A stretch of 64,000 bases of DNA. Origin: Diacronema lutheri. Lineage: Eukaryota; Haptophyta; Pavlovophyceae; Pavlovales; Pavlovaceae. Position 1 is the first letter of the stretch. Each line of letters begins with the position of its first letter. Below the pieces are notes generated by a model. The model ran no database searches. It saw nothing but the letters and a program-made list of their open reading frames with translations, and had not been told where the DNA came from. This document shows positions 22,033 through 43,643 of this stretch, in pieces. Both the position numbers and the translations under genes were made by a program. Location of the stretch: NCBI GenBank assembly GCA_019448385.1, contig JAGTXO010000004.1:1364001-1428000 (forward strand), written 5' to 3'.

Positions 22033-22065
22033 GGGGGGGGGTGGGGGGGGGGGGGGGGGGGGGGG
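22033..22065. repeat. Poly-G tract, 9+23 bp interrupted by one T
   Basis: G homopolymer on the plus strand, hence a proline run in the minus-strand frame. Confidence 0.95.
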
Positions 22066-22469
22066 CGCGTTGGGCCGCCCGCGGAAACGGAGGTGAGCGT
22101 GTGGGAGCGGCGCGCGTCGGCGCGCGCGGCTGGCGTGCAGCACGGATAAGTCTTGTGTGGACTTCGCGGGGCGGATCCCGGTGCAGGGATTGCCGACGTA
22201 GGCCGCGAGCGCGAGCAGGGCGGGGATGAAGACGGATGATGGGGTTGGGGCCAAGGCCGCCGCACCCGCAGCTATCACGGTGGCAGCGACCGCCACGGTC
22301 AGTGCGAGGCTCGCGTGGCCGCTGCGCGGGCAGCTCGCCCGCCAGGTCCAGGAGGGCCGGCCTGCGGCCTCAGTGCCCAGCGTTGGGCATGTCAGCGTCT
22401 GCGTCTGCGGGCCCGCCACTGCGATGGCGCTTTGAGCCTGGCGCACCAAAACGCAATCGGTCCGCCGAT

Positions 22470-22470
<1 letters not shown>

Positions 22471-22500
<30 letters not shown>
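22471..22500. repeat. Poly-G tract, 30 bp
   Basis: Uninterrupted G run on the plus strand in the same LINE-like region. Confidence 0.95.
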
Positions 22501-23864: not shown

Positions 23865-23889
23865 GGGGGGGGGGGGGGGGGGGGGGGGG
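23865..23889. repeat. Poly-G tract, 25 bp
   Basis: Uninterrupted G run followed by TTTGGTGGTGGTGG, so a strong G-quadruplex candidate on the plus strand. Confidence 0.95.
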
Positions 23890-24413
23890 TTTGGTGGTGG
23901 TGGCAACCAGGATCCGCCAGCGCGTGGTGGGCGCCGTCCAACTCCCAACCAGGATGCGCCCCGTTCTTCCCCGACACTCTCCGTCCAAACCCGCCGCCCA
24001 GCCTGCCGCCGCACCCGCCGCCAACGCCGCCGCGCACCCATCCGCCGAGCTCACCGCGCGCGCGCTCGCGCTCACGCTGCGCGACGAGGCTGCGCAGGCC
24101 GGCGCGCGGCCGTGCAGAGCAGCGCAGGCCGGCGCGCGGCCGCGCGCGCGCGCTCACGTTGCGGCCGCGCAGCGAGCTTTCGCCGCGTCGCAGCCCCTCC
24201 GAGCAGCCACGATGCACGCCCCCGGAGGACGTTGGCCGCGCTCGGAGGCCGCGCTCGGGCGCGCAAAGAGAGGCGGCGCGGGCAAACGAGTAGGCTCGGC
24301 GCGCTGGCGGGTCCTGGTTGTGGGAGAGCGGGGCATTCTCCAGGGCATCATGTAAATTCTCCCAAGTATCATCCGGGCCGCCATCCGGACACTGACGTGC
24401 CCACAGTCTGCAG

Positions 24414-27400
24414 ATGGAGGACTCCGTGAAGGACGCTTTGCCCGGCGGGCGGGGCGGCTCGGACAGTTTCTCGCTGGCCCTCAGCACCATTCTGTCGCCG
24501 GGAGATACCCACCCCCACGTGGTCCCATCCACTTGCCTCATCGCCCTGCTGCGTTACGCGGATTTCGGCACGAGCAGGGTTAGGGTGGGCGACACGGGGT
24601 GCTCGCAGCATGCGCTCAAGGTGGCGCTGCGCAACCTGGGCAAAGCATGCGCGGATGCGGACCGGTTTGGGCAGGTGCTCGTGGTCGTGCTACCGTTCTG
24701 CCTCCGCGCGTCCAGCGGCCTCGCGCACTGGACGGCGGCGTACCTGCTCCTCGCGCCGCCCGCGCAGCGCGGCGCGCCGCCCGGCGCCGCGCTCGCCCTG
24801 CTCGCCGATTCGCGCACCTTGGGCAACGGCGAATCGGCGTACGCCACGGCGGCCGGCGTGCTCATCAAGAAGCTTGCGCAGCGCATCGGCAGAACAGCGC
24901 CGCCCATCGATGCCTTCAAGGCGCCCCCGCAGAGTGGGGCCGCGTGTTGCTTCGCCGCGGCAACAGTCGCGGCCGAGGTCGCGGCGAGCGCATCGACGCT
25001 CTACGGCCGCCGCGCGAATGTCCTTGTCGAGATCAAGAAGGCTTTGGACGCGCGCCTCGCGCGCCTCACGACGGCCGCGTACGAGGAGACCCGCGCGCGC
25101 ACGCTCCGCGCCGCCATCGGCGCTCTGCTCGGCGACCGCGCCAGGCGCTTCGGCCCGTTCACCCGCGAGGCCGCGCGGCTCGCCGAGGCCGCGCGGCTCG
25201 CCGAGGCGTGCGATGCCAGTGTCGGCGGATCCGCGCCCGACGGGCTGCTGCAGGCCGTCGAGGCGGCGCTGCGCGCGCCCGACGACCGCATCGCACGCAC
25301 GGCCGCGCTCGACGCGCTCACGGGCGCTGCAGGCCGCGCGCTGTCGACGGCGGCCAGGCCGCGCGGCGCGGCGGCGCCAAGGCCGCCGTCGCGAGCGCCA
25401 CCGCCGCGTGCGCCGCAGCGGCGCGCCGCCTCGGCGTGGGGGCCCCGACCATTCAGCCTCCTCGGCGGGGGCGAGGGCGACGGGGACGATGGCGACGCCA
25501 CCACCGCTGACGACGGGGAGGGCGCGGAGGACGGGGACGACGACCTCGCGGGCGCGGCGGCTGCGGCGGTGGCGACGGGCACGGCGGCGACGAGCGCGGT
25601 GGCGGCGGGCGCGGCGCCAACCTCGCCGGCGGCGGCGGACGGCGGTGGCTCGGCGCCGCTCGAACGCCGCTGCGTCTACACTGCGCCTGATGAGGGCGAC
25701 GCGGACGCGCGCGTGTACGACGCCAAGGACCCCGAGCAGCTAAAAGCGGGTAGGGCGCGGCTGCGGGCGAACAGCGGGCGCGCGCCCGCCGTGGTCGACA
25801 CGCTTTTCGCGCACGCGACGGGCACGATCGTCACGCGGCAGCGCACGGAGGGCGTGACCGGCGCGGGCATGCACCACCTCGCCGCCCCGACGCAGGGCGC
25901 GGGGTACGGTACCGTCGTGCGGGCCGAGCTGGGCGAGCCCGGCTTCGCGGGGACGACACGGCACATGACGTCGGGCGTGGAGAACCAGCCGCGCGCGGTA
26001 CGAGCGGCCGCGCGCGCGTACGCGCACGACGGCTGGGGCGGCGTGTACAATGCGCACGAGGACTTTGCCGCCTTCGAGGGCTTGCCGCGGCTCGCCGCGC
26101 CCGAATCGCTCGCGGCCATCGCCGGCGGGTCGGCGGACGCGGTGTTCTGCTGGCGGTCCGGCCGGTCCGTCAACGGCGAGGTGACGACGGTTCACTTCAA
26201 TGGCGACCGCGCCGCCGCCATCGACCACGCGCGGGCGCTGCGCGTCAGGCCCGATTGGCGCTCGCAGCCCAGGATCTACGAGGCGGCGTGCGGCGCGGAG
26301 GGCACGGTGCTGCTCGTGTGGGTCGTGCCCGACCGTCACAAGAACCCGCGGCTGGACTGGGCGCCGATTCTCGTCGTGATCCACCTGCCCGCCGACCCCG
26401 ACTGGCTCGCGCGCGCCACGCCGGCGATCGCGAAGGCGCGGCGCGAGGTCGAGGACGGACGCGCGCGCGCGGAGGCGCGCGGCGTGCCGCAGCACCTCGC
26501 CTACACGCTGAGCCCACGCTTCCGAGGCACCGCGCCGCGCGGCGCCGCGCGCGTGCCGCCGCGCCTCGGCGCGAGCGACGCGCGCGAGGCGCGCGCGCTC
26601 GCGGCGCTCGAGTCGGCGCTCATGTTCGCGCCGGCCTGGCGGCGCGCGGTGCGCGCGGCGAGCCGCGCCCCCGGCAGTGGCGCCGCGGCCGTCGAGCGCG
26701 CGCTCGCGCGCCTGCACAACGCGCCCGAGCCCGATGACGAGAGCGCGCCCGAGTCGGCGCGCGTCGCGCCGCTCGCCGCCGCGCTCGAGCAGTCGGCGGG
26801 CTGGCCGGCGGGCACGGCGCGCATGGCGGCAAGCGTGACCAAGGGCCCCGGCGTCGGAGATGGCGCAGGTGGCGACGAAGCGATCAAGGTGGAGGAAACG
26901 GCGAAGACGAGCGGCGACGGCTGCACCGGCACGCCTCCTCTGCGCCCGGCCGCGCGCGCGGCCGGCGCGGCGGACGACGGAGGGGCGGCGGTCGTGGCGG
27001 GCGTCGAGGGCGAGCGCGACGCACTCGCCAAGACGGGTGCCGGCGGCTGCGACGACGACGCTCGCGAGCCGCTGTCGGCCGGCAAGCCCGGCGCACTCGC
27101 CGCCGCGGCGACCGTCGGGGGTTTCGGCGAGCTCGTCGGCAGCCTATGCGCGTGGCTGGCGCACGGCGCGGCTGGCGGCGCCATCGCGGCCATCTCCCCC
27201 GGGACGGCCGCGCGCGGAGCAAACGGCACGCCGCAGCGCGCCGAGCCGCCGGCCGCCGGCGATCCCGTCGCTCCGCACGCGCGCGTCGCCGCTGCGGCGC
27301 CCTTGGCGGGCAGCGCGGCGGCGCCGTCGTCGGACGCGCGCGACGCGCAGCGCGGCGTCGCGGGATTCGACGCGGCCGCGCACGCGCACGCGCGCGACGG

Positions 27401-28436
27401 CAGGCGGGCGGCACGGCGGATGCGCGAGCAAGAGGGGGCGGTGCACAGGGCCTTCCGCATGTCCCTCTGGCGCGACGCGACGTTTGCCGAGTTCGTTGAG
27501 AAGCTGCGCCCCGACGGCGGCGCGCAGCTGCTCGCGCGCGAGCCCACGCGGCGCGCGGCGGCGGTGCTGTGCGAGCTCGCGCGCGGCCGCGACGGCGCGA
27601 GCGGCGCGGCCGGGCTGCTGCACGAGATGAGAGCCGCCGATGCGCGCGCGCGCGAGGCCGCCAAAGCGGCGGCGGAGGCAGCGCGGCCTGCGCACGGGAC
27701 GCTGCGCATCGTGGCAACCGTGGCGCTGGGCGGTGCGGTCTTCGCCGGCGTGTCAGCGCTGGTCGTTGCTTGCGCGGCGCGCACGGCGACCGGTGCGCTC
27801 TTTGGGGCCCGCCGCCCGCGGGCGGCCGCGCGCGGAGCCGACGACGCGCTCGGCGCGCCGCAGCGCGCCGAGCCGCCGCCCGCCGACAAGGGCAAGCGCA
27901 GGCGCGCCAGAGCCAACGACGACCCCGTCGACGCGGCGCGCAAGGCCGTGGGCAAGGCGGAGGGCAACTGCCGCAAGGCAGCCCGCCGGCTGCACCTCGC
28001 TGCACTGGGCGAGGAGGAGGCGCAGCAGCGCGTGCTCGACGCCGAGGCGGCGGAGCAGCTGGCGCGCTCGCGCGAGCCGGCCGGCGGCTGGGTAGGCAGC
28101 GCGCGCGCGCGCGCGCGCGCGCGCCCCGCCGCGCGCGCGCCCGTCGATTGGCGTGCGCGCAGCGCAGAACGGCGCGCCAGCTCCGTCACCCGCGCGCCGC
28201 CGCGCCCGTGCCCCTCGCGCGCAGGGGCGCCCTGCGGACCTGCGGCTGCAACAGGCGCACTTTGGCATGCGCGAAGATGCCGACGCGGATGTGCGCCGCG
28301 CGCACGATGCGCTGCGCCGGGCGAGACAGGGTGTGGCGTGCGCCAAGGCCAGCGTGCGGCAGATGGAGGCGGCGTTGCTCAACGCGACGCGCTGCGCCAC
28401 CGCGGTGCTCGCGCCGCGTGGCGTGCCGGAGGGTGA
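24414..28436 (+). CDS. Ulp1/adenain-type cysteine protease ORF with C-terminal coiled coil
   Basis: A frame of 1,340 residues. Residues 85-190 show the C48/adenain catalytic order: GLAHWTAAYLLL (His105), ALLADSRTLG (Asp132) and APPQSGAACCFAAAT (Gln173, Cys179). The Gln-to-Cys distance of six is that of Ulp1. Such proteases process SUMO-like modifiers in hosts and polyproteins in viruses; many eukaryotic transposons carry them. Acidic and Ala-rich linkers follow, then a well-structured but unrecognised region (residues about 430-720; GVYNAHEDFAAFEGLPRLAA, VTTVHFNGDRAAAIDHARAL, LLVWVVPDRHKNPRLDWAPI), a helical segment (WRDATFAEFVEKLRPDGGAQ), a single membrane-like helix near 27,715 and a coiled coil. 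The Met at 24414 is the first in the frame and starts 60 residues before the first conserved strand. Confidence 0.6.
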   Translation: MEDSVKDALPGGRGGSDSFSLALSTILSPGDTHPHVVPSTCLIALLRYADFGTSRVRVGDTGCSQHALKVALRNLGKACADADRFGQVLVVVLPFCLRASSGLAHWTAAYLLLAPPAQRGAPPGAALALLADSRTLGNGESAYATAAGVLIKKLAQRIGRTAPPIDAFKAPPQSGAACCFAAATVAAEVAASASTLYGRRANVLVEIKKALDARLARLTTAAYEETRARTLRAAIGALLGDRARRFGPFTREAARLAEAARLAEACDASVGGSAPDGLLQAVEAALRAPDDRIARTAALDALTGAAGRALSTAARPRGAAAPRPPSRAPPPRAPQRRAASAWGPRPFSLLGGGEGDGDDGDATTADDGEGAEDGDDDLAGAAAAAVATGTAATSAVAAGAAPTSPAAADGGGSAPLERRCVYTAPDEGDADARVYDAKDPEQLKAGRARLRANSGRAPAVVDTLFAHATGTIVTRQRTEGVTGAGMHHLAAPTQGAGYGTVVRAELGEPGFAGTTRHMTSGVENQPRAVRAAARAYAHDGWGGVYNAHEDFAAFEGLPRLAAPESLAAIAGGSADAVFCWRSGRSVNGEVTTVHFNGDRAAAIDHARALRVRPDWRSQPRIYEAACGAEGTVLLVWVVPDRHKNPRLDWAPILVVIHLPADPDWLARATPAIAKARREVEDGRARAEARGVPQHLAYTLSPRFRGTAPRGAARVPPRLGASDAREARALAALESALMFAPAWRRAVRAASRAPGSGAAAVERALARLHNAPEPDDESAPESARVAPLAAALEQSAGWPAGTARMAASVTKGPGVGDGAGGDEAIKVEETAKTSGDGCTGTPPLRPAARAAGAADDGGAAVVAGVEGERDALAKTGAGGCDDDAREPLSAGKPGALAAAATVGGFGELVGSLCAWLAHGAAGGAIAAISPGTAARGANGTPQRAEPPAAGDPVAPHARVAAAAPLAGSAAAPSSDARDAQRGVAGFDAAAHAHARDGRRAARRMREQEGAVHRAFRMSLWRDATFAEFVEKLRPDGGAQLLAREPTRRAAAVLCELARGRDGASGAAGLLHEMRAADARAREAAKAAAEAARPAHGTLRIVATVALGGAVFAGVSALVVACAARTATGALFGARRPRAAARGADDALGAPQRAEPPPADKGKRRRARANDDPVDAARKAVGKAEGNCRKAARRLHLAALGEEEAQQRVLDAEAAEQLARSREPAGGWVGSARARARARPAARAPVDWRARSAERRASSVTRAPPRPCPSRAGAPCGPAAATGALWHARRCRRGCAPRARCAAPGETGCGVRQGQRAADGGGVAQRDALRHRGARAAWRAGG

Positions 28437-31400
28437 CGAGCAGGCCGCGGCGAGAGAGCAGGCGGCGCTGGACCGGGAGGCGCCGCCGGCCGCGCAACGC
28501 GTGGCGCCGACGGCGCGCTCGCCCTCGGAGCCGCCGTCCGAGTGGGGCCCGCCAGCGGTCGGCCGGCGCCCGACGCCGCGTGCACTGTCGCACGCCGCGG
28601 GGCGCGGGGACGACAACCCGTTTGCGCCGCTCGCAACCGTCAGCGGCGATTGGTCGCCCACGCCGAGCTCGCGCTCGCCGTCCTCGCCGCCGCGGCAGCC
28701 GCCGTCCGACCGCCGCAGCGCGCAGCGTCGCAGCGCGCGCGCGCGGCCGCCGAGGCCGACCGTTTCGCCCGAGGACGCGCTCGCAGCCGAGCGCCAGGCG
28801 CGCGCGCTGTCGGAGCAGGCGGAGCAGAGGCGCGCCAAAAAGGCCGCCGCCAAGGCCGCGCGCCGCGCCGCGCGCGCCGCCGACAAGCGGACGGCGCGCG
28901 TCGTCCACGCGTGCGTAAGCGCCGCCTTGCGGCGCGTCTGCACGAGCGTCGCCACGGGCACGCCGCTCGCCGTGCTCCGCGAGCGCGCCGAGGGGCCGCG
29001 CGCGCCGAAGGCGGCGCCCGCGCCGCCACGCCGCGCAGCGGACGGCGGCCGCGCGCTCCGCCACGCGCGTACGGCGGCCGCCGCGGCGGCGGAGCGCGAG
29101 GCGGCGGTGGCGGCCGACGCCGACGAGCGGTTCGAGCGGCAGCCCTCCGCCGCCCGGTTCGACGGCGGCGATGGCGGCGGAGGCGGCCACGTCGAGGCGA
29201 GCGCGCGACCGCGCGCCGGCGAGGCCGGCGAGGCTGGCGCGCACGGCGCGCCTGGCGCAGCGGGGACCCCGGCGGCGTCGCTCGCGTCGCGCAGCCCGTG
29301 TGATGCGCGCCGCACGGCACGCCTCCCGCACGCACGCGCCGCAGCCACCTGCGCACGCAACGGCGGCTGGGGTGGCAACGTCGGCGGCGACGTGTGCGGC
29401 GATTGTTTCGGCGGCGGCGGCGTCCGTCGCGACGCCTGCGGCGGCGGCGACGCCACCTGCGGCTGCGGCGATGGCGGCGTCGGTGCTGGCGCTGGCGAGG
29501 CCCCTGCACACGGTGCGCCGGCGCGCGCGACGGCGTCGCGCTTGCTGCGCTTGCTCGGCGCGCCACGCGCCGTGCTCGGTGCGATGGCGCACGCCGCGGT
29601 CGTGTTGGCGCGCGGCGTGGCCGCAGCCGTCGCTGGCGTGCGCGCCGCCGCGCGCGCCGTGCGGCGCGCGCGCCGCCGAGCGCCTCGCGCGCGCCGCACG
29701 GCTGCGCGGCGGGCTCGCGGCCCGCCGATGCGCGACGTCGACGGCGCCCTGCGGCCCTCGCCGTCCTGGTTGCGCACACGCCTCGTCTGCGGCCGGCGCC
29801 TCGCGCCTCTGCGCCGCGCGGGCGCGCGCCCGCCGCCCGCACACGCCGCGCCGAGTTCCCGCGCGCGCGCTGCGCAACCCGACAGCGACGCGCCGGCGTG
29901 CGCGCCGCGGCGCTCGGCGCCTGTCGGTGCGCCGCCGCGCGCGCGTGGCCTACGCGCGGCGCGCGCACGGCGCTTCCTCGACGTCGCCGGCCGCGCGGCG
30001 CGGAGCGCGCGCCTCGGCGCGCGCATCACGCGCCAGCGCACGCCGGGTTCGCCATCGGAGCCCTGCACGGCCGAGAGCGGCGACGGCGCGGGCGCCGGCG
30101 GCGTCGGCGCGGCGGCGCCTGGCGCGGCGACGATGCGCGCCACCGGCGCGCGCGCAGCGCGCGCTGCGGCGGCGGCGGTCGGTGGCGCCTCGCGTCTCGC
30201 GCGCCGCGCGATGGCAAGCGCCGCCGCCGCTGCCACCTCCATCGCCGGCGCTGCCGCCTCGACCGTCGCCGCCGCCGCCGTTGCCATCGGCGCGGCCGTC
30301 ACGTCACCGGCGTTCGCCGCGGCGCGCGGCATGGCGGCCGCATGCGTCGCTGCCTGCGCCCGCCCCACCGCCGCGCAGGCGGCCGCGTCGCGCGCGCTCG
30401 GCGCGCTCTTCGTGCTCGTCGACGCGGCCGACGCGGCGGGCGACAGCGACGCCGCGCTCGGCGCGCTCGCGGCCGCGGTCGACGCGACGGAGCTGCGCCC
30501 GCCGCCGGCCTTTTGGCGCGCGGGCCGCGCCGCGGCGTACGCACCGCGTCCGCCGCCCCTCGACTCGGCGCGGCCGCGCTACAACCGGCGCGCGCGCGCA
30601 CCTAGCCCTCCCGTCGCGGCCGCGCGGCGCAATCTCGCGCGCGCGGTGCGCGAGCTCACGCGCGCCGCGCGCGCTGAGCGCGATCGCGCGCCGGCGCCGC
30701 GCGGCGCGCGCGGCGGCGTGCTCCACGCGCTGCGCGCGTCGCTCCCCGTGCACGCGCGTGCCGCGCTCGGCACGGACGCGGAGCTGCGCGCGGACATCGC
30801 CGCGTTCGCGCGCGCGCGCCGCGAGCTGCACAGCCTCACCGACGCCGAGGTGGCGGCGCTCGCGCGCCCGGACGGGCCGCCGCTGCCCGTGCGGCTCGCG
30901 TGCACGGCGGTCGCGCGCGCGCGCGGCGTGACCGTGCTGCTCGACATCGTGCCGCGCGGCGGCGGCGCGCCCGAGCGGCTCGTGTGCCGCGCCCGTCGCC
31001 GCGGCGCCGCCACGCGCACGCCACGGCCGACAGCCGCCGTTATCGCGCGCGCGCCTTGCATAGCGGCGCGCGTTGGCCACACTGAGCCGGCGCGCGCGTG
31101 CGCGGGCGGATCGATCGGGGTCGCGCGCCTCCGTTCAGCGCGCCGCCGCTCTTGGCGTGGGGCGCGGCTCGACGTGCACACCCGCGAGCGGCTGGCCACA
31201 CCGGTGCCAGGCCACGTCGTGGCCTGCGCCGCCGCCTCGGCCATCGGCGCGTGCGTCGCTCGCGCGCGGCTTGGGCTTGCACGGCTGGCGCGCGCGTGGC
31301 CCTGCGCCTCCGCTCCACTGGCCACTGCTGCTGTCGCCTTCGCGCCTGCCGCCGACGGTGTTTTCTGCGCCCCGCTGGGCGCTCCTGCATCCGCCTTCGC

Positions 31401-32621
31401 GCCTGCCGCCGACGGTGTTTTCCCCGCCGCACTAGCCGCTGCTGCATCCGCCTTCGCGCCTGCCGCCGATTTTCCCGCCCCACTAGTTGCTCCTGCACTC
31501 GCCTCCGCGCCAGCCACCGACGGCATTTTCCCCGCCCCACTAGTCGCTTCCGCTGTCGCGTCCGCGCCTGCCGCCGCGGGCGTGTCTTCCGCCCCACCAG
31601 CCATCGCCGCCGCGCCCGCCGCCAACGTGCGCACCGCCAACGTGCCCGTTGCCAACGAGGCTACCGCCACCGAACCAGCCGCCCTTGAGCTTCCCCTCCA
31701 ACCCGCCAACTCGGCGCTGCTTGCGTGGGCGGGCGACGCGGCTGCGCGCCGGCTGGCCTCCGCCGCCGCGAGCGCCGGCCTCCCGCAGGCAGAGGTGGAG
31801 CGCATCGCCAGCGGCGACATGCTCGCCTCAACCGTCGACGCGTGCTGCGAGGTCGTGCTGCGCGTGCACGGGCAGGCCGGCGGCGGGCATGTCTGCCACG
31901 TGCCGCTCGCCGCGCAACCCGCGGTGTTCCAGGACGGCGCCGAGCGCGCCGCGCTGCTGCACCGCCTGCGCAGCGAGGCGACAACGCAGGCTGTCATCGG
32001 CGTGTGGAGCCCGTCGGACGAGCGCGGCGGCGCGGGCGGTGACGACGGCGCGCAGCTCGCCTCCGGCCATTTCACCGCGTTGCGCCTTGTGCGCGTCGCG
32101 CGCGCGGGCGAGCATCGCTACGACGCGGTGCTCGTCGACACGCTCGCGTCGCCCTGCAGGCAGGCGCTCATGCTCGCCAAGGCGATAACTGCCACGCTGC
32201 ACGCGGTGGGTCTCGACATTTCGCGCGTGCGCCGCGCGCTGCTGCTCAACGAGGCGGCGCAGCGTGGCGCGACGTGCGGCCTCGCGATAGTGGGCGCGCT
32301 CAACGACGCGCTCGCCGCGGCGGGCTGCTCGTCCGCGCCGCGCACGTTCAGCGTGGCGGACATGTACGCTGTCGGCGAGCGCCTCCGCGTCGCGCTGACC
32401 GGCGCGGCCAGCGATCGTGCGCCGGGCGGCGTCTGCGCGGTCACGAGCGCGGTGCGTGGCGGGGGCAGCCCCGATCGCGCCGAAACGCCGCCGCAGACGC
32501 GCGGCGCCAAGGCCGCCGCTGGCGTCACCGCCGCCGCCACCGCCGCCGCCGCCGCTGCTGCCGCCGCCGTGGCCGCGCCGCCACCGCCGCCACCGCCGCC
32601 GCCGGCCGGCGACGAGGACGA

Positions 32622-32669
<48 letters not shown>

Positions 32670-34170
32670 GCGCACGTTCTTGAAGCTCGCGCCCAGGGCG
32701 CGCGCGGCCGCCTCGGCGCGTGAGGCGTTGCGCGCCGCGTGTGCGCGCGCGGACGCGGCGGCGTCGTCACACGCGTCGGCGCCGCACGCGCCCGCCGGTG
32801 CGCGCCGCCGGCGGCGCGCGGGCGCAGGCGAGCTGGCGCTCGCGGCTGCGCGCGCGCTCGCCTCGACGGAGCACGGCGATTTGACGGACGACGCGCTCGA
32901 GGCCGCCATCGAGCAGGAGCTGGGCGACGAGCGCGGCCAACTGCTGCTGTGCACGCGGGGCGCAGCGGCGCAAAGGCCCGCGCTTTGCCGGCTCCTGAAG
33001 CACGCGTGCGCGTCGGCGCGCGCGGCAAAGCGCGCGCAATTCACGGTGTTCGTCGTGCGCGCGGCCACGCGCGGCGAGCGGGGGGGCGCCGCCGCGAGGC
33101 GCGTGGACTCGGTGGTCGAGCTGTCGTGCGCGCTGCACGAGAAGGCGGGCGCGCTCGGCGGCCTCCAGAGCGTCTGTGTGCGTGGCTTCGCCCTCGAGCG
33201 CCGCCGGACACTCGACGCTGGCGCCGAGGCCGGCGCGTCCGCCATCGGCCAGGACGAGCAGGTCGAGGCAGAGGCGGGCGAGGCGTGCGTCGCCGGCGTG
33301 ACGATGGCCAAGCAGCTGCGTCAGTTTGCCGAGCAAGCTGCCCGCGACGACGTGCTCTTCCACGTCGCCGTGTCCGAGGCCGACGCCCACGCCCGGCTGG
33401 CGCGCGTTGCGGGTGACGATGTCGGCGCGTACAGCGTCGTGCTCGCAGTCGCCGGGCTCGTCTGGCTGGCCAAGGCCGACGAGGTTGCGCCGGCGGCCGC
33501 CCAGCCCGCCGCCGCGCCGCCCGCCGCCTCGCCTGCTGCCGCCACGTCCGCCGACGCCGAGCGCGACGCCTCGCCTTCCGACCGCCTGCGCGCGCTGACG
33601 CTCGCCGTGCGAGTCGCGCTCGCGCGCGGCGTGCTGCGCCACCTCCTCGCCGACGCGTCGCCGGGCGCGTCCGCGACCGCTGGCGGTAGTTGCGCGACGC
33701 CCGTCGAGGCGGCCGCGTCCGCCGCCGCGCCGCCCGCCACGGGCGTCGTAACGAGTGGCGTTGCGGCGGGCGCTGTGGCGGCCGCACCGGCTGCTGCGGG
33801 CGGGGCGACGGCGGGTGCATCGCCCATCACGCGGCCGGCGAAGCGCGCGCGGCGCACGCTCACCGCCGCTCCAGCCACCTCGGCCGTTGCGGCCGCGGAG
33901 GCGCACGCGCTGGCGCACGCGGCGCGGCCGGAGCGCCTCGCGCGCGCGCCGCGCGCGCGCCGGCCGAGTACGTCTGGCTTGCCATCGCGCGCCGGATGCT
34001 GGCGGCGCGACACGCGGCGGCCGCGGGCGGCGACTTTGTCGCGTCGTGCGTCGCCGCGATGCAGGCCGAGTACGGCGACGGCTGTGCCGTCGTCGTCGGC
34101 GACGCGCCTGGTGACGCCTTGGTCGAGGCTGCGGCGGCGGCGCTGCTCGAGGGCAAGCACGCGGCGGTGA
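28153..34170 (+). CDS. Second long ORF with Ulp1-type protease and low-complexity regions
   Basis: A frame of about 2,000 residues, continuing the coiled coil of the frame before it (VRRAHDALRRARQGVACAKA), then Ala/Arg-rich sequence. A second Ulp1-type protease is recognisable at 31.9-32.4 kb: SGHFTALRLVRV (His codon at 32068), AVLVDTLASP (Asp at 32136) and AAQRGATCGLAIVGALNDAL (Gln at 32260, Cys at 32275). The helix before it (VDACCEVVLRVHGQAGG) and the TATLHAVGLDISRVRRALLL linker fit the fold. After that come Ala and Pro runs from GCC repeats (32.52-32.68 kb) and a helical segment with ALDDALEAAIEQELGDERGQ-like character. The N- and C-terminal limits are uncertain, because this frame overlaps the neighbouring frames and may be joined to them by splicing. 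The first half has few features beyond composition. Confidence 0.45.
32521..32670. repeat. GCC trinucleotide tracts (Ala and Pro runs)
   Basis: GCC/CCG runs encode an Ala tract, a Pro tract and a second Ala tract within the second long frame. They are uninterrupted for up to 15 codons and likely unstable in length. Confidence 0.9.
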
Positions 34171-37100
34171 GCCTCGGCTGCGTCGACCGGCCGGCGGTGC
34201 TCGTCGTGCAGCGCGCCGTGGACGCGCCCACGTCGCGCGTGCACGGGTGGTGCGCGCACGCGGCGGGCGCCGCCGAGTTTGACGAGGGCGCCGCGCACGG
34301 CGTGTTCAACGCGATCGTCGAGCGCGCGTGGGCGCTGCGTCCGGACCCGGCCGACGGCAGCCCGCCGCCCACGCGCACGTGGGAGGTCGAGCGCATCGCT
34401 GACGACGCGCCCGACCAGGCGGGCGTGGCCGCGCTGCGCGTGCTCTACGCGCTCGTCGCGGCGCACGGCCGCTACCGCTCGGCCGCCGCGCTCTCTGGCG
34501 CGCTCGCGCAGCTGCACGCGCCCGACGCCGCCGGCGCGCGCGCGGAGGTCGTCGCGGCGGCGTGCGCGGTGCCGCCCGGCGCGCGGCCGGGCGCCGCGCC
34601 GGCGGCCGCGCGGGACGACGCGAGGGAGCGCGCATGGGAGGGCGCTCGGATCGCCGCGCTCGCCGTCGGCGCGGACGCTGCGCGCAGGCGTGTCGCGCCC
34701 GTGCGCGCGCTCGTCGACGCGCTCGGCACGCCACCGACCTCGGCGATCACGGGCGGGCCGGCGGTGCGGCTCGCGGGCGCGGGCGACGGCGGCCACGGTG
34801 CACGGTGGGTGGGCGGGCAGGCGGCGACGCCCGCCGAGCAGCTGCCGAGGGAGCTGCTGCGCGCCTACCACGAGGCGGTGCTGTGCGTCACGCCCGGCAG
34901 CCTCCAGCTCGACTCGGCGGCGCTCGACGCGGTCACGCGGCCGCGCGAAGACGACACGCTGGAAGGCCTCCTCGCGCGCGTCAGCTGGCAGTGCGGCGCG
35001 AGGGCGAGCACGTGCGCCATGCTCGCCACGTTTTCCGAGCAGGCGGGCACCGGCTCGCGCGTCGCGCTCAAGGCCCTCCGCACGAGCTCCGACCTGGCCG
35101 GGCTGACGGCGGCTGCGGTCGGGCAGCAGGCGCCGCAGACGCCGCCGCCGCCGCTGCTCGTGATGCTCGGCCGCTGCCCCAGCCCGCTCGTCGGCGGCGG
35201 CCTCTTCCCGCCCGACCGCGCGACGGGCGAGCCGGCGGTGCACGCGGCGACGTCCGAGCTCGCCGTCGAGCTGCTGCGCGACGCGCGCGCGCTGGCCGGC
35301 ACGGACGGGCGGCTCGTCGTGCTGTGCCTCGAGGCGTCCAACCCGCTCTGGTTCTGCCCCAAGGTGCGCGAGCTCGAGCTGCCGCGGACGCGGTCGGACG
35401 GCGTGCGCGCGTCCGGCTGCACCTGCCCTGCGACGTGCAGCGATGCGCGCGGCGCGGCGGGTGGCGCTGCCCGCGGCGCATCGACGCGGCCGGCGGCGCG
35501 CGCGATCAACAAGGCGGTGCTCGACCACTTCGTCGCGCTTTTCGGCCGCGAGGGCTTCGCGACCTTTGAGTTTGCGGGCGGCGGCGAGGCGAGCTGGCTG
35601 TGCGACAGCGCGGCCGGCAAGACGACCGTCGCGGCGTGCGCGTCGCTCCCGCCGCGCATGGGCGATGGGCAGCTGGCCATCCGGCGGCACACGCTCGGCA
35701 CGGGCGCCGACGCGCCGGCGCACGCCGTCGTCTCGCTCCGCGTCGCGCACGTGAGCCACGCCATCCGCCGCGCGGCGGACGACGGCGGCGCGCGCGCCGA
35801 GCGGATGGCGCGCGCCGCGCGCGCGTTTTGCGATGTGGCGGCCGCGCTGCGCGTCGACGCGATCCTGGCGGAGGTGCCCGAGGACCGCCCGACGGGCACG
35901 CCCTTCCTTGGCGGGCTGCTCGAGTTTTGGAACAAACGCCACGGGAGCTCGACGGCGCCAGCCACGCTCGCGCTCGGAGACGTGCGCGAGGTGGCCAAGC
36001 GGACGGCCGACGCAGCGGCCGGCCGAGCGGACGAGGTCCCTGCGGCTGGCCGTCCGCAGGTCGCGGCGCGCGCGTGCGCTGGCGCGATTGGCGGCGGCGC
36101 GGGCGCGGCGGGCGCCTCGGACGCTGCGCCCCGTGCACTGGCGGGCGCGTCGGGTGCGCGCACGGACGGCGGCCCTGCCGACGCACCGCGCCAGCTGGAG
36201 AGCCGCTACGGCGAGGCGAGCAAGCTCGACCTACCCCAAGATTCCACTACGGGCTGCGTCCTCGACGCTCGCGAGGCCCAGGACCGCGCGCGCGTGCCTG
36301 CTGCGCCCGACGGCACAGCGCTGCGCCGCGTGCTCGACGCCGTCGGCGCGGGCGCGCCCGCGCAGCGCAGCCCGCGCTGGCACGACGAGCGATGGGAGGA
36401 GGTCACGGGCAGCAAGGTTGGCGACGTCGTGAACGACAACGCCGGCGTCGCGCACGAGACGCTCACCGACGAGTACGTGCACCGGCGGCGGCGCGAGGTG
36501 CGGACCAAGGCGACGACCGCGGGCATCCTCGGCGAGGCCGTCGCGCTGCGCAAGCTGGCGGCCGCGTACGGCATCACCGTCGTGTGCAACCTGCCGATGG
36601 TGCGTGCGGACCCGCACGACAAGAGCGCGCCGTTCGCCTTCTCGCCGGACGGGCTCGCCATCCTCCCCGAAGACAACGAGCAGGTCCTCGTCGAGGTGAA
36701 GACGCTCACCAAGGCGGACGCCAAGGCGCACGAGGACGGGCCGCCGCAGCCGCACCGCGATCAGCTGCAGCTCGGCATGCACGTCCTCGGCGTGCGCAAA
36801 GCGCTCTACGTGCAGTACCTCAGGCACGAGGACCGGATCGTCGTGCACGTCGTGACGCGCGGCGTCGGCTGGCTTGCATTCGCGCAGCCGAGGGTGCAGG
36901 CCTTCTGGGCGCGCGTCGTCGAGCGGCGCGCGCGGCTCGAGCGCGCGCGCGCCGACCACCCGGCTGCGAGCCGGCGGCACCGGCGGCAGCAGACGCCGGC
37001 CGGGCCGCCGCTCGTGCTCGCGCTGGACGGGCGCATCCCCGCCGCGCGCGCCGCCGCGCTGCACGCCGTCGCGCACGGCACCGCGAGCGCGGCGGCGGTG

Positions 37101-40100
37101 GCGGCGACGGCGGCGACGGGCGACGCGACGGCGTTGCAAGACGCGATCGCGGCGCTGCGCGCGCCCGTCGGCAATGCGGCGATCGACAGCGCAGCGCGTG
37201 CGGAGCGCGCGGCCGTCGAGCGGGCGATCGCGTACCTCGGGCAGCCGGCAGGCGACGCCGCCGCCCGCGGCACGGCCGAGGCGGCCGAGGAGGAGAGGAC
37301 GGTCGACGCCGACATCTGCGCGTTGCTGCACCAGCTCGGCGCGAGCGTGGCGCACGTGCACGTCGAGGACGCGGATTGCGTCACGCGTGAGCACTGGGGC
37401 GAGGCGGTGCTCGCTGCAGCGGGCGACCCGTCGAGCGCCCCCGCCATTTCGAGCGTCATCGTCGCGCACATCGTGCGGCTCGCCGGCTTTGGCGTCGAGC
37501 TCCCGCAGTCGATTCGCGTCGCCCCCAGCACGGCCGACTGGCACGAGGGCTGGCTCGACGTGCAGTGCGTGCTGCTGCGCACGCGCCGGCGCGGGCGGCG
37601 CGACGACGACTTTGTGGCCGTCGTCAGGCGCGGTGGGCGCTGGTTTGCGTGCGAGCCCGGCCGCGCGCGGCGGCTGCAGTGGCGGTCGGTCCTGCGCCGC
37701 GCGCGCGGCGGCGTCGACGGGACCGGCGAGGAGGCGTTCGCGGTCGTCTACGTGCGGCGCGGCGACGCGGCCGGCGACGCGGCTGGCGACGCGCAGGCCG
37801 AACGGGCGCGCGGCGGGCGCGCGCGCAGGCGCACGCGCGGCGGCACGCGCAAGCGCAAGCGCGGCGCCTCCGCCGGGCTCGAGGCGGCCGCGCCCGCCGG
37901 CGCGCCGGCTGCCGCGCCCGCCGGCGCGCCGGCGGGCGCTGCTCACCGCCCGCCCGCCATGCGCGCGACGGTCGCCGCGCGCACCACGCGCTCTGTGACC
38001 GACGCGCGGCACTCGGCGCCTGCCGCCACGGTTGCACCTGTCTTCGACTGGCGCGCCGGCCGCCCGCCCCCCGCCGCTCGAGCCCGCCACCCGCGGCCGC
38101 GTGGGCGCGCGCCACCGGGCAAGGCCTGGGACAGCGTCTCGGGTGCGTGGGCGGACAAGCCGACTGGTGCTGCCGTCGCCGGCGCGCCGCCGCCGCTGCC
38201 GCCCGCCGCCGCGCCGCCGCCCACCGCCGCGCCGCCGCCCGCCGCCGCGCCGCCGCCCGCCGTCGCGCCGCCGCCCGCCGCCGCGCCGCCGCCGCCGCCG
38301 CCACCGGCGGCGCTCAACCGCTGGCAGCACGTCGGCGCGGGCGGCAGCGCGGCGGGCCGGCGGCTCGCGGCCATCGCACGGCGGCAGCGCGGCGTGCGCG
38401 CGCCGCCGCCCACCGCGCGCTTCCTCGCTACGCTGCCGCCACCGCCACGCGACGGCCTCGCGCGCACGAGCAAGCAGGCGCGCGCGAGGCGCAACGCGGA
38501 CGGACGGCCGGCGCACGCGCGCGCGGCCAACGCGCGCGCCTTCTACCGCGGCGTGGAGCTCGGCGTGCACGCGACGCGCGCCATCGTCGACGCGCGCCAC
38601 GCCGACCTGCCGCAGGCCGTCTTCGTGGCGGAGGCGCGGGCGATCGTCGCGCGCTCCGCCGGCGGCGGCGTGCTGCTCGCGCCGGACGACGTGCGCGACC
38701 TGTGCGACGCGCAGACGGACGCCGATCGCGCTGCGATCTGGGCGTCGGTGGGCGCGCACGAGGCGACGCGCATCTTCGCGCTCGTCACGCGCAACGCGAG
38801 CTTGGCGGGCGCGGCGCTGCTCGTGCTGCACACGCCGGCGGGCGCGCCGGCGCGCGCGCTCGGGCTCGTGGCGACGCGCTCGCGCGCGCCGTCGACGGGC
38901 GCGCCGCGCGACGCGCACAGGGCGCTGGTGCAGCGGTTGGACGTGCTGATGGACGCGATCGCCGCGGCGCGAGGCGCGTCGCCGCTCGAGCTCGAGCTCG
39001 CGCTCGCGCCCGAGCCGCAGAGCGCGTGCAACGCGCGTGCGGCCGCGCTGCTCTGCCTGCAGGCCGTCGCGGACGCGAGCGGCCGTCCCGCCGCTGAGGA
39101 CGCGCTGGCCGCGCTCGACGACGCGCGCGGCATCGACCGGCACTGCCACGCCGTCCGGCAGCAGATCGAGGCGAAGCTCGCGTGGCGGCGCGCCGACGGC
39201 GACGTCGGCGTTGACGGCGCCGACGGCGCGCCCGCGCTCGCGCCTGCCGCCGCACCGCCGGCGTGCGCGCCGGCGCACGCTGCCGGCGAGGCGGCGGTCG
39301 ACCAGGCGATCGTCACGCGGGTGCGCGACGCGCTGCGCGCGTGGGCGACGACTGGCACCGCGCCCAGCGCGGCGGTGCTCGACGACGCCTGCGCCGCGTA
39401 CACGGCGCGCGCACGCGCGCGCAAGGACGCGCGCACGGCGCTGGGCCCGACGCGCGCGGCCGAGCTGCTCGCCGCGGCCGCGCGCGGCGGAGCCGACGGG
39501 GCGGATGCCGCGCGCGCGCTGCTCGGCGGCACGCCGCGCCTGCTCGTCGTGCTCCTCTGCGTGCCCGTCGCCGCGCCGTCCGGCGAGCCGCCGCGCCCGG
39601 TCGGGCTGCTCGTCGCCGACCGGCCGATGGACGACTCGCGCCCGGCCGCGCTCGTGCGCTACGACTTTGCGCCGCTCGACGCGGACGTGGCCGTCGCGGT
39701 CGGCGCGCATGCCGTCGCGCTGGCCAGTGCGATCTGGGCGCTGCTCGCGGCCGAGGGGGAGCCGCGGCCATCGCCCGTCGTGCGCTCGCAGCCGCGCGGC
39801 GGCGACGATGGCGCGCGTGCGCTCGCAACGTTCGCGTGCCTCGACGCGCTGATGACCGCCAGCGTCGGCGCGCACGGCCTCGCGGGCGGCGCGGGCATGC
39901 TGCCCGCGCTGGTCGCGCGAGGCGCCGCGGCCGCCCAGCGCGAGCGGCAGCTGCGCGCGGCCGCCGAGAGGCTGGGCGGCACGGTCGCTGGGTGGCCGGA
40001 CACGGGCGCGAGCGCGGCGGGCGCGAGCGTCGACGAGGAGGCGCGCACGTACGAGGTCGAGGCGGTCGTCGACGAGCGCCGCAAGGCGGGCAAGAGGGTG

Positions 40101-42990
40101 ACGTTCCAGTTCCGGATCAGGTGGCGGGGCTACGACGAGAGCGCCGACACGTGGGAGCCTGAGGCCAACGTGAGCAGCGACCTCGTCGCCCAGTTCCGCA
40201 AGACGCGCGACGAGCAGAAGCGGCGCGCGGGCGGATCGGGCAGCGGCAGCGGCGGCGCGGGCGCGGCGTCGGCATTGGCGTCGGCGCCGCTTCGCGCGCA
40301 CGGCGTGTCGGGCGCCGCGGGCGAGCGCGCCGCGGCGGGTGCCGCCGCGAGCGCGCGCGACGCCGCGGGCGCGCGCGCGCCGAGCGTTCCCCGCGCGCGC
40401 GGCGTCGAGCGCGCGCGCGTGGACGAGCCCGCTGCGCCGAGCGCGCGCGCCGCCGGCGGCGCGACGGCGCGCACGCGCGGCAGCGTGCTCCCGGGCTTCG
40501 TGGTCAAGCGCTCGACGCTCAACGCGGGGCCGCAGGCGGTGACGGCGCAGCCCGGTGCGCGGACGGAGCTGCGGCGCATCGCGGCGGCCGTGCACAGGCT
40601 CACGACACAGGCGTACCGCGTCATCAACAAGGTGGTGCGCGACGAGGCTGCGGTGGCGAGCGCGCAGGCCGTCGGCGCGGCGTCGGGCGGCCCGTCGACC
40701 AGCGTGCACACGTCGACCACGATGGACAAGGGAACCGTCCGTGCGATCTTCTCGGCCATCGGCTGGCACAAAGACGAAAGCAGGTACGGTGCAACGCCCA
40801 CGGGCAGGCCCACCGAGCAAGCCGCCGCGCAGACCAAGGCGGCGACGGCGCGCGCCGTCGGCGAGATGGCCGAGGGCGTCCAGCCCGTCTGCGCGGTGGG
40901 CCTCACGGAGATCCTCAGGGAGGAGGCGACGCAGGTGTCCACCGCGTGCCTGATGCACCCATCGCGCGTCGTGAACGGGCTGCTCCGCGACGTCGTCCGC
41001 GCGGCAGTCGAGCGCGACGAGGCGCTCGTCGCGCTGCCCGAGATGCAGCGAAACGTGCGCGTGCGCGAGCTGTGCGAGCGGCTGCTGCGCGGCGACGTGG
41101 AGGGCGCGCGCGTCGGCTGCCCCGCCGCGCTCGACCGCCACCTGCCCGACATGGTCCTCCACAAGATCGACTACAAGTGCACGCCCACGAAAAGGTGGAA
41201 CTACGACCGGCACACGACGCGCTACTTCCTCGTGCAGATCCGCAACCTGCAGCACGTGGCCGAGGGGCAGGCGCTGCTCTGCCGGCTCGCGCACATCCAC
41301 ACGCAGCTGACCGGACGGCCGCCGCGGTACAATGTGGCGCCACTGCGCACGCACAATGTGCGCGCGAGGCGCGGCTGCCGCTGCCGCCGCCGAGCGCCCA
41401 AGCGCGCGCGCCGCCGCCGTGCGCGCCGCCCCGCGGCCAGGTTGGTCACGCGCCCGCGCGCTCGCATGCCGCGCGCTGCGCGCAGGTGCCGCGCAACGTG
41501 CGCCTCACCGCGAACGCCATCTGGGAGACGCTCCCGGACGACGAGCGCAAGGAGCTGCGCGCGCGGCTCAAGGCGCTGGACCTGCGCGACCACGATGGTG
41601 AGCCGATCAGGTGGACAGGCACAAACGGCAACACCCCGCCGATGTCGGACGTGCGCGTCAGGTACGCGGTCTTTGCGACGCGCTTCGACATCTCCAACCG
41701 CGTCTTCGACTACGCCGGGCGCGAGCGGCCGCCGGCCGATCTGCCGTGGCACGCGCGGCGCTCGTGGGTTGGCCTCGCGCCGCTGCCGCGCGTGCCGCTC
41801 CCGGGCCGGCAGCCCGTCACGTCGGTGGTGACGGACGGCGTCGCCGTGCACGCCGTCGGGACCGTCCTCGTGCCGAAAGCGCAGGCGCCGGCCGGCGGCT
41901 CGGGCGTCCTGCACCGCTGGCGCCGGCCGGACGGGCGCATCGCCGTCGCGCTCGGCTCCGAGCTGCGGCGGGCGATCGACGTCGAGGCGGCGGTCGTCGT
42001 CGCGGCCGACCCGAACATGGGCAACATCACCACCTACTCTGCGCACGTCGGGCGGGCGGCCGTCTGGCGGCAGTTCACGCAGCGCGCGCGCGCGCGCGCC
42101 GCGGGCTTTGCGCGCGAGACGGCCAAGACCAACGCGGCGCGGCGGCGCGTGCGCAAGGACGGGCGCGGCGAGGAGTTCAGCGTGGAGGCGGACGAGGCGC
42201 GGCTTGGCGAGGCGCACAGCGCCAAGGTGCTCGACGCGGGCAAATACATCGCCTTCCACCGCGAGAGCGCGCGGGTGCGCGAGCGCGCCGCCGAGCACGT
42301 GTACGACGCGCCGGCGCGCCGCAAGGAGCGCTGGCGGCGCGACAGCGGCGGGCGGTCCAACGCGGCGTGCGTCGCCGAGGCGCTCATCGCGGCGCACTGC
42401 GTCGACGGCGTGACGCGCGACCGGCTGCTCGTGTGCGTGGGCAAGTGGCTGCGCGACCACAAGGGCGCGCAGCCCAAGGGCGCGCCGCCCGCCTTCCAGG
42501 TGGGGCTGCTGCGCGAGCTGCGGCGGCGCGGCGTCGCGGCCGTCTTCGTGCCCGAGCCGTACACGTCGATGCATTGCTCGATGCCGCGGCTCGCCAAGGG
42601 CGGCAGGCTGCAGCGCTGCGGCGCGGAGCTCGCGCAGAACCCGCGCCTGCCCGTGGCAAAGGGCGGCACGCGCACGGTGCACGCGCTCGTCATCTGCCCG
42701 GCGTGCAACGGCGGCAAGAAGCCCGTGCACCGCGACTACAACGCCGCGCGCAACATCTTCTACGACGTGCACGACATGGCGGCGCACGCGGCCGGGCGCG
42801 ACACCACGTCGACGCCTGAGCGCTTTGCCCTCGTGCTCGCCTGGTGGGCGCGCGGCGAGGTGTGGGAGCGTGAGGAGCGCATGGTGCACGGCGAGGGCGA
42901 CGACTGCGACGACGAGTGCGACGGCGACGACGAGGGCGACGACGAGGGCGACGACGACGACGACGACGACGGCAGCGGCGACGGCGGCGG

Positions 42991-43023
<33 letters not shown>

Positions 43024-43210
43024 AGGCGGCGGCGGCGACGACGACGATGACGGCGGGGGAGGCGGCGGCGGCGACGGCGGTGGCGACGACGGCGGCGGGC
43101 GCGGCGGCGGTGGCGGCGGCGGCTCTCGCGCCCGCACCCCCGCCCGCGGAGCTGCCAGCGCCAGTGCCGGCGGCGGCAGCGCGCGCGGGCCGAAGCGCGG
43201 CCGGCGTTGA
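33690..43210 (+). CDS. YqaJ nuclease - chromodomain - Fanzor (TnpB-like RNA-guided nuclease) ORF, one intron
   Basis: Fanzors are eukaryotic relatives of TnpB/Cas12 that cut DNA guided by an RNA encoded beside the gene. One frame runs from 33690 to a donor at 41357/41358; a 128-bp intron (41358-41485, GTGCGCG...GCGCAG) joins in phase 0 to the frame ending at 43210. YqaJ-type nuclease: FSPDGLAIL (Asp 36648), VLVEVKTL (Glu 36693, Lys 36699), PHRDQLQLGMHVLG. Chromodomain 40.04-40.23 kb: YEVEAVVDER, FRIRWRGYDESADTWEPEAN. Fanzor from about 40.48 kb (VLPGFVVKRSTL): RuvC-I VVVAADPNMGNIT (Asp 42008), EPYTSMHC (Glu 42554), cysteines at 42575, 42617, 42695 and 42704, and HRDYNAARNI (Asp 42734). Asp-to-TS distance is 185 residues, inside the published D-x(125,275)-[TS][TS]-C4-RD pattern. 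The last ~100 residues are Asp/Gly repeats. The true start Met is uncertain. Confidence 0.75.
42890..43135 (+). repeat. GAC/GGC trinucleotide tract, Asp/Gly tail of the Fanzor frame
   Basis: Almost pure GAC, GAG and GGC codons encode alternating Asp and Gly runs right behind the nuclease domain. The tail is strongly acidic at first and Gly-rich later, ending in a short basic SRARTP/GPKRGRR segment that could act as a nuclear signal. Confidence 0.85.
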
Positions 43211-43643
43211 CGCACGGCCGAGCCGCGCAGCGGTCGACGCTTTGCGGGCTCTGCCCAGGTCGCGCGCGGCTGGCGACGCGTACCGCATTCGGCACGCCCG
43301 TGCACGCCGCCACCCGTGGCCGAGCGCGCCGCACCAGCCGGCCCGCTCCAACCGCCGTGCGGATCACGGACGCTCGCTACGGCTCGTCGGCGCGCGTCAC
43401 CTGCGCCGGCGGCCACGGCGCCGTCTGCTCCGGCCTCGTCGCGAGCAGCCCGACCGCTGCTCGCCGCCCGCACGCCGCCGCAGCAACGCTGCGCGTCGTG
43501 CTCCCCCGCTCGCCAAACGCGAAGAGCTCCCTCACAAGGACGTCCTTCCGAATGGCCCGCGCTGCACTCGGGGCGCTCGATCGTGCCCCTGATCGGATTT
43601 GGCTTGACCATCTATACGCTCTCCCTTTCGTTCTTTGAAAGAA
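43211..43643. other. Region 3' of the Fanzor frame; place to look for the guide RNA and the element's right end
   Basis: In TnpB and Fanzor systems the guide RNA usually overlaps or follows the 3' end of the nuclease gene. This 430-bp stretch lies between the Fanzor stop and the stop of the next (minus-strand) gene. A plus-strand frame without ATG is open through it, but I see no domain. No clear hairpin, terminal repeat or target-site duplication was found by eye. Confidence 0.3.

Follow-up and report, generated by a model that had tools for sequence, protein, structure and literature searches.

A mobile element of about 31 kb in Diacronema lutheri encodes a YqaJ-type nuclease, a chromodomain and a Fanzor1 nuclease, probably as one chain

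Introduction

What a Fanzor RNA-guided nuclease does for the eukaryotic transposon that hosts it is an open question, addressed here with a locus of the haptophyte alga Diacronema lutheri. The locus lies in a stretch of 64,000 nucleotides (hereafter the window; assembly GCA_019448385.1, contig JAGTXO010000004.1, positions 1,364,001 to 1,428,000, forward strand), in which a YqaJ/RecE-type exonuclease domain, a chromodomain and a Fanzor follow one another. A previous sequence-only reading had proposed from this order an RNA-guided cutter with its own chromatin reader and resection nuclease. What it had overlooked is the setting: the three domains lie in a mobile element of 31 kb that carries a helicase of its own and inserts at a strict motif. 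Because of this location, the likeliest function moves from general chromatin-targeted cutting to retention or homing of the element.

Fanzor1 proteins in Helitrons and other transposons, and chromodomains in the polyproteins of retroelements, are known already. A fusion of Fanzor with a chromodomain is not described in the open-access literature that we searched; the pairing of Fanzor with YqaJ was never searched by name. Our best explanation, to which we give an even chance, is a Helitron-related element of about 31 kb whose giant gene joins a YqaJ/RecE exonuclease, a chromodomain and a Fanzor1 nuclease, working by the mechanism proposed below. We do not assign the element to Helitron proper, since the Rep domain and the canonical Helitron ends were tested for and not found.

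Results and discussion

The three domains

Profile searches, the check that the sequence-only reading had named, returned family matches for the YqaJ domain and the chromodomain. All three domains are real, stand in the order reported and keep their key motifs intact, with expectation values (E) of 6.2e-16 for the RecE-like exonuclease family PHROG 434 (over the interval given in Table 1), 5.9e-12 for PF00385 and 2.8e-6 for PF07282.

In the window, the YqaJ domain also matched the NCBIfam lambda-exonuclease family TIGR03033 at 1e-7, below the curated cut-off, and Pfam YqaJ (PF09588) at 0.0099 within the long frame and at 2.3e-4 when searched alone (21.9 bits against a cut-off of 22); PF09588 was over its cut-off, at 22.3-28.2 bits, in all 150 genomic copies scored. 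By family match and D...ExK motif together, the domain is classed as a YqaJ/RecE nuclease; SPDGL, EVK and QLQLGM within it are its presumed motif segments. Phage RecE/YqaJ proteins share the matches to these three families and the D...ExK...QxQ motifs, whereas the D. lutheri domain lies inside a eukaryotic frame of 4,500 codons and, in the window, has Pfam and NCBIfam scores at or below the cut-offs. The best solved relative of the chromodomain was CDYL (6.6e-11), HP1 being aligned as well, and we take the Y, W and Y read off these alignments to be the aromatic-cage positions.

That the three domains share one open frame stands for the YqaJ domain, the chromodomain and exon 1 of the Fanzor; the catalytic half, with the RuvC and zinc finger motifs, is in another frame (40163-43210) behind an intron of 128 bp. 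The single frame 33690-43210 of the sequence-only reading is the union of this frame with 33690-41831. The exon junction, THN-VPRN, is that of the annotated protein P0009 (KFE25_006464). Besides the residues in Table 1, exon 2 contains a zinc finger, a RuvC D at 42734 (RD) and an acidic Gly/Asp tail ending in GPKRGRR. The match to PF07282 (Cas12f1-like_TNB) was over the cut-off, and NCBIfam guided_TnpB gave 0.016. The Fanzor1 signature, D-X(125,275)-[TS][TS]-XX-C4 zinc finger-X(5,50)-RD (PMC3627910, PMC10711439; papers are cited by PubMed Central number), is present as D-X184-TSMHC...C-X8-RD, with the first Cys pair wider than CxxC, and the alternative Glu is found in EPYTSMHC, with six residues between it and the first zinc-finger Cys.

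The Fanzor family is conserved across four diverged proteins, P0005 to P0008 (43-51% identity in alignment). D, E and RD are kept in P0005 and P0006, which are 47% and 44% identical to the window Fanzor, and the first RuvC motif is DPN in the window, DPG in P0006, P0007 and P0008 and DTG in P0005. These proteins say nothing on the fusion, since their contigs are 1.5-2.8 kb long. When a low-confidence model (mean predicted local distance difference test score, pLDDT, 54.8) was compared with solved structures by Foldseek, the top three hits were all SpuFz (E 2.5e-5 to 1.1e-4, template modelling score ~0.25). We take SPu-1-1p to be the same protein as SpuFz1. SpuFz of Spizellomyces punctatus (PMC10432273; PDB 8gkh, 9cey) likewise has an active site of D, D-x-N and Glu, SpuFz1 using D383 and N385. 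According to the same source, the target-adjacent motif (TAM) of Fanzors is 5' of the target, and that of SpuFz1 is CATA. This motif is close to the TATA-type TAM predicted for the D. lutheri Fanzor. Unlike the D. lutheri Fanzor, SPu-1-1p, the founding protein of S. punctatus, is a single protein of 633 amino acids, and the element that carries it measures 2.1 kb and has inverted repeats of 33 bp (PMC3627910). In the N-terminal part of the D. lutheri Fanzor, at 41163-41315 and 40772-40812, copies differ densely, mostly by amino-acid-changing substitutions, in a mosaic pattern that suggests gene conversion.

The giant reading frame

The open frame is longer than the sequence-only reading had put it. 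In five of six fetched copies of the element, this frame (frame B) runs without a stop for 4,505-4,594 codons; the window copy is broken upstream of the YqaJ domain. In all six, no stop interrupts the stretch that leads from YqaJ via the chromodomain to where exon 1 ends, exon 2 (574-576 codons) is open to the Fanzor stop, and the motifs DPN, EPYTS, HRDYN, SPDGL and EVK are kept, as is the core of the chromodomain. From YqaJ to the Fanzor stop, the six copies differ in length by 18 and 6 bases, multiples of three; an apparent pair of -1 and +1 changes two bases apart between copies was read as substitutions in a later comparison.

Genome-wide, 150 of 203 candidate YqaJ copies and 150 of 260 chromodomain matches were scored; the first four chromodomain matches look like other genes, by score and frame. 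None of the 150 YqaJ copies had a stop inside the match, and their frames, with a median of 4,502 codons, reached at least 4,000 codons in 105 cases and at least 4,400 in 86, and stayed under 2,000 in nine. Pairing of YqaJ and chromodomain matches on the same strand and 3-4.5 kb apart gave 104 pairs among the matches listed; in 93 of them the two lay in frames of identical length, that is in one frame, with a median of about 4,500 codons. From the position-specific composition of the frame itself, 17.7 stops would be expected in 2,548 codons (5.2 from YqaJ to the chromodomain and 3.4 from the chromodomain to the exon end), and there was none; when 28096-41831 was simulated 200 times by a first-order Markov model, the longest frame had a mean of 726 codons and a maximum of no more than 1,660. 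The long frame is therefore more than chance. It supports a fusion of the three domains, which are quite probably one chain at translation; their function is a matter of inference.

Extent, ends and copy number of the element

In the four copies compared with the window, the right edge was always at 43617/8; the left edge was at 14442/3 in copies C86, C69b and C96 (the contig of the last begins at this point), as well as in one more copy near C69a, and the C69a copy, unlike the others compared, begins at 22349 in window numbering. The Fanzor and YqaJ stretches occur in at least 40 genomic copies each, at 98-100% identity. With at most two mismatches allowed, the genome (43.5 Mb, 103 contigs) contains 248 left-end and 218 right-end patterns, and reversed controls gave none. 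Pairing was done with the 88 right and 99 left places on contigs C1-C43 among the 100 listed per end, and yielded 61 paired ends: 24 at about 31.0 kb, 12 at about 21.5 kb, 8 at 29.1-29.4 kb, 7 at 26.0-26.9 kb and 10 of other sizes. The family is recently active, with about 200 closely similar copies. It may make up some 14-16% of the D. lutheri genome, an estimate which takes a mean of 28.2 kb and assumes that the listed pairs are typical and that each end stands for a full copy. The genome paper, based on a PacBio assembly, gives 22.9% repeats, with long terminal repeat (LTR) elements and long interspersed nuclear elements together accounting for 36.5% of the masked bases (PMC8379373).

A retroelement was considered and rejected: the reverse transcriptase family RVT_1 was not on the element family, and right ends did not exceed left ends in number. 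A telomere-specific element was rejected too, as sampled true contig ends carry repeats of TTAGGG/TAAGGG type.

Insertion site

The element is inserted directly 3' of CTATATA[C/G], a motif found exactly in 23 of 31 left flanks and, with C or G in the first position, in 26. By column, C was present at -8 in 26 flanks, T at -7 in 29, A at -6 in 30, T at -5 and A at -4 in all 31, T at -3 in 28, A at -2 in 29, and C or G at -1 in 29. There was no conservation beyond -8 in the left flanks, nor any in 32 right flanks. Seventeen of 18 flank pairs had no common string longer than 6 nt, and the mean common string was not above that of shuffled pairs (0.22 of 500 reached the observed mean).

The right terminus, CTATAC, resembles the target. 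Single-strand (HUH) transposons such as IS200/IS605 have a motif outside the left end and a like motif inside the right end. With this type the D. lutheri element shares insertion 3' of a short motif to which the right end is similar (31 left flanks) and, as predicted here, a TAM equal to the insertion motif and a guide from the flank, as in IS200/IS605 TnpA-TnpB (PMC11870625). It differs in being eukaryotic and giant, with a helicase, a fused nuclease and a chromatin reader; TnpA (Y1, PF01797) was not found in its Pfam-scanned frames, no genome-wide search being made. The termini, 5' GGCGCGG and 3' CTATAC, are not those of Helitrons, 5' TC (or T) and 3' CTRR, and the two ends have no inverted match of at least 8 bp.

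Helicase and relation to Helitrons

Of the solved structures, Helraiser, a Helitron transposase, came nearest to the helicase, at 4.4e-25 against 4.5e-6 for PIF1. PF05970 gave 7.9e-19 (16871-17641) and 1.8e-23 (16936-18069) in the window; in the canonical copy of about 31 kb (the C8 copy, pieces L031-L034), it gave 1.7e-15 (L031:3461-4849) and 1.8e-24 (L031:3808-5868), with Pif1_2B at 5.3e-13. Among Helitron traits, the helicase and insertion without duplication or inverted repeats (17 of 18 pairs) were thus found, and a fused Rep (HUH) was not. In the 331 residues before the helicase (L031:3524-4516), where a Helitron Rep would be, no family match was obtained, and AlphaFold modelled this N-terminus with a pLDDT of 37.5; it may be a single-stranded-DNA-binding protein, with a putative resemblance to those of giant viruses. 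A regular-expression scan for HxH in the six frames of the canonical copy returned five strings, none convincing by eye. A divergent Rep may be present on the element.

The Chlamydomonas Helitron2 elements CRe-1, -2 and -3 (Bao and Jurka 2013, PMC3627910) are likewise algal elements with a multi-exon Fanzor1, and a Helitron-type helicase is another common feature; Helitron-1N1_CRe (same source) also inserts directly after its motif, TTTT, without target duplication. Compared with Helitron2 CRe, the D. lutheri element is about 31 kb long, uses CTATATA[C/G], has its Fanzor in frame with YqaJ and a chromodomain, and begins with GG and not T; neither a Rep nor an inverted match of at least 8 bp between its termini was found. 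Unlike it, CRe-1, -2 and -3 often show 7-19 bp target duplications and 5' truncations (PMC3627910). Chromoviruses offer a precedent for a chromodomain within the polyprotein of a mobile element (PMC6338049); in the D. lutheri element, unlike these, no reverse transcriptase or integrase family was detected.

Proposed mechanism

In the mechanism that we propose, the parts would be translated together into a single chain, at most some 5,000 residues long, which proteases of the element might then cut. The Fanzor would recognize the insertion motif as TAM (TATA[C/G]) and be guided by the 3' flank, carried on an RNA from the right end; with such a TAM and such a guide, each copy could cut its own empty site. 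In bacteria, the target motif of TnpA is the TAM of TnpB, the guide is derived from the flank, and once the element has been excised, cutting of the rejoined site is followed by its being copied in again (PMC11870625). By analogy, we consider it slightly better than an even bet that the Fanzor uses the insertion motif and right-end RNA in this manner, cutting only the element-free site. YqaJ would resect the cut ends, by which recombinational copying of the element back would be favoured, and the chromodomain would keep the enzyme bound to nucleosomes, perhaps to marked ones; that the two act jointly in this way is a tentative proposal, somewhat more likely to fail than to hold. The element itself probably moves via single-stranded, rolling-circle-like DNA. 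It is doubtful whether all this makes the element the first to encode an RNA-guided nuclease that has a chromatin reader and a nuclease for end resection in the same chain, a self-contained machine for homing in eukaryotic chromatin, which would find its own empty site by guide RNA and TATA-type TAM, cut and resect it and have a 31-kb element copied into the gap. If true, such a natural fusion of RNA-guided cutter, resection nuclease and nucleosome binder would give editing by recombination a precedent for design. The strict motif amounts to a concrete TAM prediction, and the roughly 200 3' flanks to natural guides; taken with the linkage of the Fanzor to a resection-type nuclease and a chromatin reader, they make the retention or homing model directly testable in a cultivable alga.

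Alternative explanations

YqaJ, chromodomain and Fanzor might be separate products, made from their own promoters, starts or spliced messages, the long frame owing much to a G+C content of 80%; we regard this as unlikely. It would fit a region (24-44 kb) of 74-82% G+C in which stops seldom occur and the antisense strand, too, has a frame of 1,757 codons, as well as the long low-complexity linkers. P0009, the sole annotated model seen, begins within Fanzor exon 1 (41151 in the window), takes in the first part of exon 2 and runs into SAM domains; it is probably a chimeric model over an element copy. Several further results weigh against our explanation. The YqaJ frame was under 4,000 codons in 45 of the 150 scored copies, and the YqaJ and chromodomain matches were split between frames in 11 of the 104 pairs. 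Substitutions among copies were not biased to third positions and many were non-synonymous, including in the Fanzor part; spread in this way over codon positions, they indicate that copies drift after insertion, and they gave no sign of selection on the fused protein. No diverged relative with YqaJ or a chromodomain plus a Fanzor was present among the scored candidates, one of the scans reaching close relatives only. With the YqaJ-to-chromodomain protein as query, none of 7,967 scored candidates matched at E 1e-3, and another search for the fusion elsewhere had D. lutheri alone among the matches listed; a second locus with the same order, by which the sequence-only reading was to stand or fall, exists as many near-identical copies of one family in one genome, with no diverged case found. 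The copy at C71:175587, which had the best YqaJ score, was tried as a diverged copy for the selection test and discarded, being 99.7% identical over 1,501 bases. Separate products are at odds with the absence of the 17.7 stops expected and with the commonness of frames of about 4,500 codons; moreover, a ribosome entering upstream in frame would read into Fanzor exon 1.

Also to be set against the proposed element and its mechanism are the following. As RNA, the right end folded only mildly better than shuffles, of which 8 of 200 were as good for its last 150 nt and 13 of 100 for 407 nt. One of the 18 flank pairs (C9:2907808) had 13 nt in common, possibly through a tandem repeat of the target, possibly through a duplication, and the left flank of the window copy, ...CTGCTACGG, deviates from the insertion motif. 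The search for empty sites recovered none, no site matching a particular insertion. Genome-wide, the Helitron Rep family PF14214 had one hit, RVT_1 had 16 and Phage_integrase (PF00589) had 16, none of them placed on an element copy (for Phage_integrase, placed by eye); with about 200 copies of the element, these enzymes are not present in numbers of the family.

The three domains could also be fused and yet work apart, YqaJ as a replication or recombination nuclease, the chromodomain steering integration to certain chromatin, as it does in chromoviruses, and the Fanzor riding along as the usual Fanzor1 passenger. As accessory domains, chromodomains are known from LTR polyproteins (PMC6338049) and from an adintovirus integrase (PMC11071296), and Fanzor1 proteins are carried by many transposon types (PMC3627910); however, a terminal Fanzor in the same frame and adjoining the right end is left unexplained. 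The strict 8-bp motif governs insertion, so chromatin steering is unneeded for the choice of site, though it may contribute, and on balance we find this arrangement rather improbable. More improbable is a Crypton-like element in which a tyrosine or serine recombinase acts via a circle, with a joint CTATAC recombining with CTATATA[C/G]. It would account for the want of target duplications in 17 of 18 pairs and of inverted repeats of at least 8 bp and for the resemblance of the target to the right end, but the tyrosine recombinase of Cryptons (PF00589) was not found within any element copy placed by eye from the listed ends, no recombinase family was found in the scanned frames (Resolvase was not sought genome-wide), and a Helitron-type helicase is present. 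That the element is an endogenised virus, or virus-like, and not a transposon is very improbable: large DNA viruses, as is generally known, also have such a size, an exonuclease, proteases and Fanzors, whereas no capsid, packaging ATPase or DNA polymerase family was found in the Pfam-scanned frames, and scans of IMG/VR with YqaJ and Fanzor patterns, whose reach is limited to close relatives, found none.

Other features and minor observations

Table 1. Features of the element copy in the window (positions of the window)
Feature	Position	Strand	Basis or remark
Mobile element, window copy	14443..43617	+	29.2 kb; canonical copies ~31.03 kb
Left subterminal perfect palindrome GTACGACCCGGGTCGTAC	14482..14499	.	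Read from sequence
PIF1-superfamily helicase, Helitron-type, two overlapping frames	16871..18069	+	PF05970; N-terminal part missing in window copy
UCH/USP-like cysteine protease fragment	20152..21054	+	PF00443 4.3e-5, just under cut-off in window
Open frame A, 1,346 codons (1,345 in C8)	24396..28436	+	No significant family match
Upstream part of giant frame B	28096..34170	+	Joined to 33690-41831 in 5 of 6 fetched copies; broken in window copy
Stop-free frame, 2,713 codons: YqaJ, chromodomain, Fanzor exon 1	33690..41831	+	Frame list
YqaJ/RecE-type D...ExK nuclease domain	36354..36929	+	SPDGL 36642, EVK 36693, QLQLGM 36762
Chromodomain, Y, W, Y at presumed aromatic-cage positions	40050..40202	+	PF00385, E 5.9e-12
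Low-complexity Gly/Ser/Ala-rich linker, chromodomain to Fanzor	40236..40487	+	Translation
Fanzor exon 1, N-terminal half	40488..41357	+	Linker boundary by eye; without family match of its own
Intron, 128 bp, GT...AG	41358..41485	+	Junction also in annotated P0009
Fanzor exon 2, 574 codons	41486..43210	+	RuvC D 42008 (DPN), alternative Glu 42554 (E-x6-C)
3' non-coding region up to element end	43211..43617	+	Predicted place of guide-RNA scaffold
Right subterminal stem GGGGCGC...GTGCCCC, one G-T pair	43570..43589	+	Ends 28 nt before right end
Target-like right terminus CTATAC	43612..43617	+	Read directly

In the canonical copy, the UCH/USP-like protease (L031:6967-8463) matched PF00443 above the cut-off, at 4.3e-8. 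An Ulp1/C48 cysteine protease reading of frames A and B was dropped: the pattern had been seen by eye only, with no family or PDB match. The sole Rep domain in the genome at E 1e-3 is at G000:C63:35738-36019 and may be a trans-acting source of the missing nuclease.

Folded as DNA, the left 140 nt of the element were equalled or bettered by 7 of 200 shuffles and the left 120 nt by 19 of 200; the right subterminal stem was no better than shuffles and had been missed in a search restricted to Watson-Crick pairs. Inversions, namely segments of roughly 90 bp and one block of roughly 490 bp, lie near the left part of the element (16435-16754 in the window, L031:2092-2979 in the canonical copy), in an arrangement that differs between the two copies.

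A number of contigs stop within about 15 bases of the right end of the element, namely the starts of C1, C5, C6, C10, C12, C26 and C29 and the ends of C3, C8, C14, C32 and C33; the left end was at a contig tip in one of the places listed (C32). The contig starts in this comparison were chosen for a left end near 31 kb and are not a random sample. Such tips may be an assembly artefact or free DNA ending there, and C26 (61,996 bases) may be two copies head to head. Telomere-like contig-end variants (TTAGGG, TAAGGG, GTCAGG and GGGGTA) were seen on C9, C13, C14, C15, C20, C21, C25, C29 and C30.

Another repeat, with 244 pattern matches, has GCGCCGTTA at its end, with TATA-type sequence coming next in several copies, and is a recurrent landing site of the element (C4:178020, C4:40355, C27:47966, C3:413781 and C2:68575).

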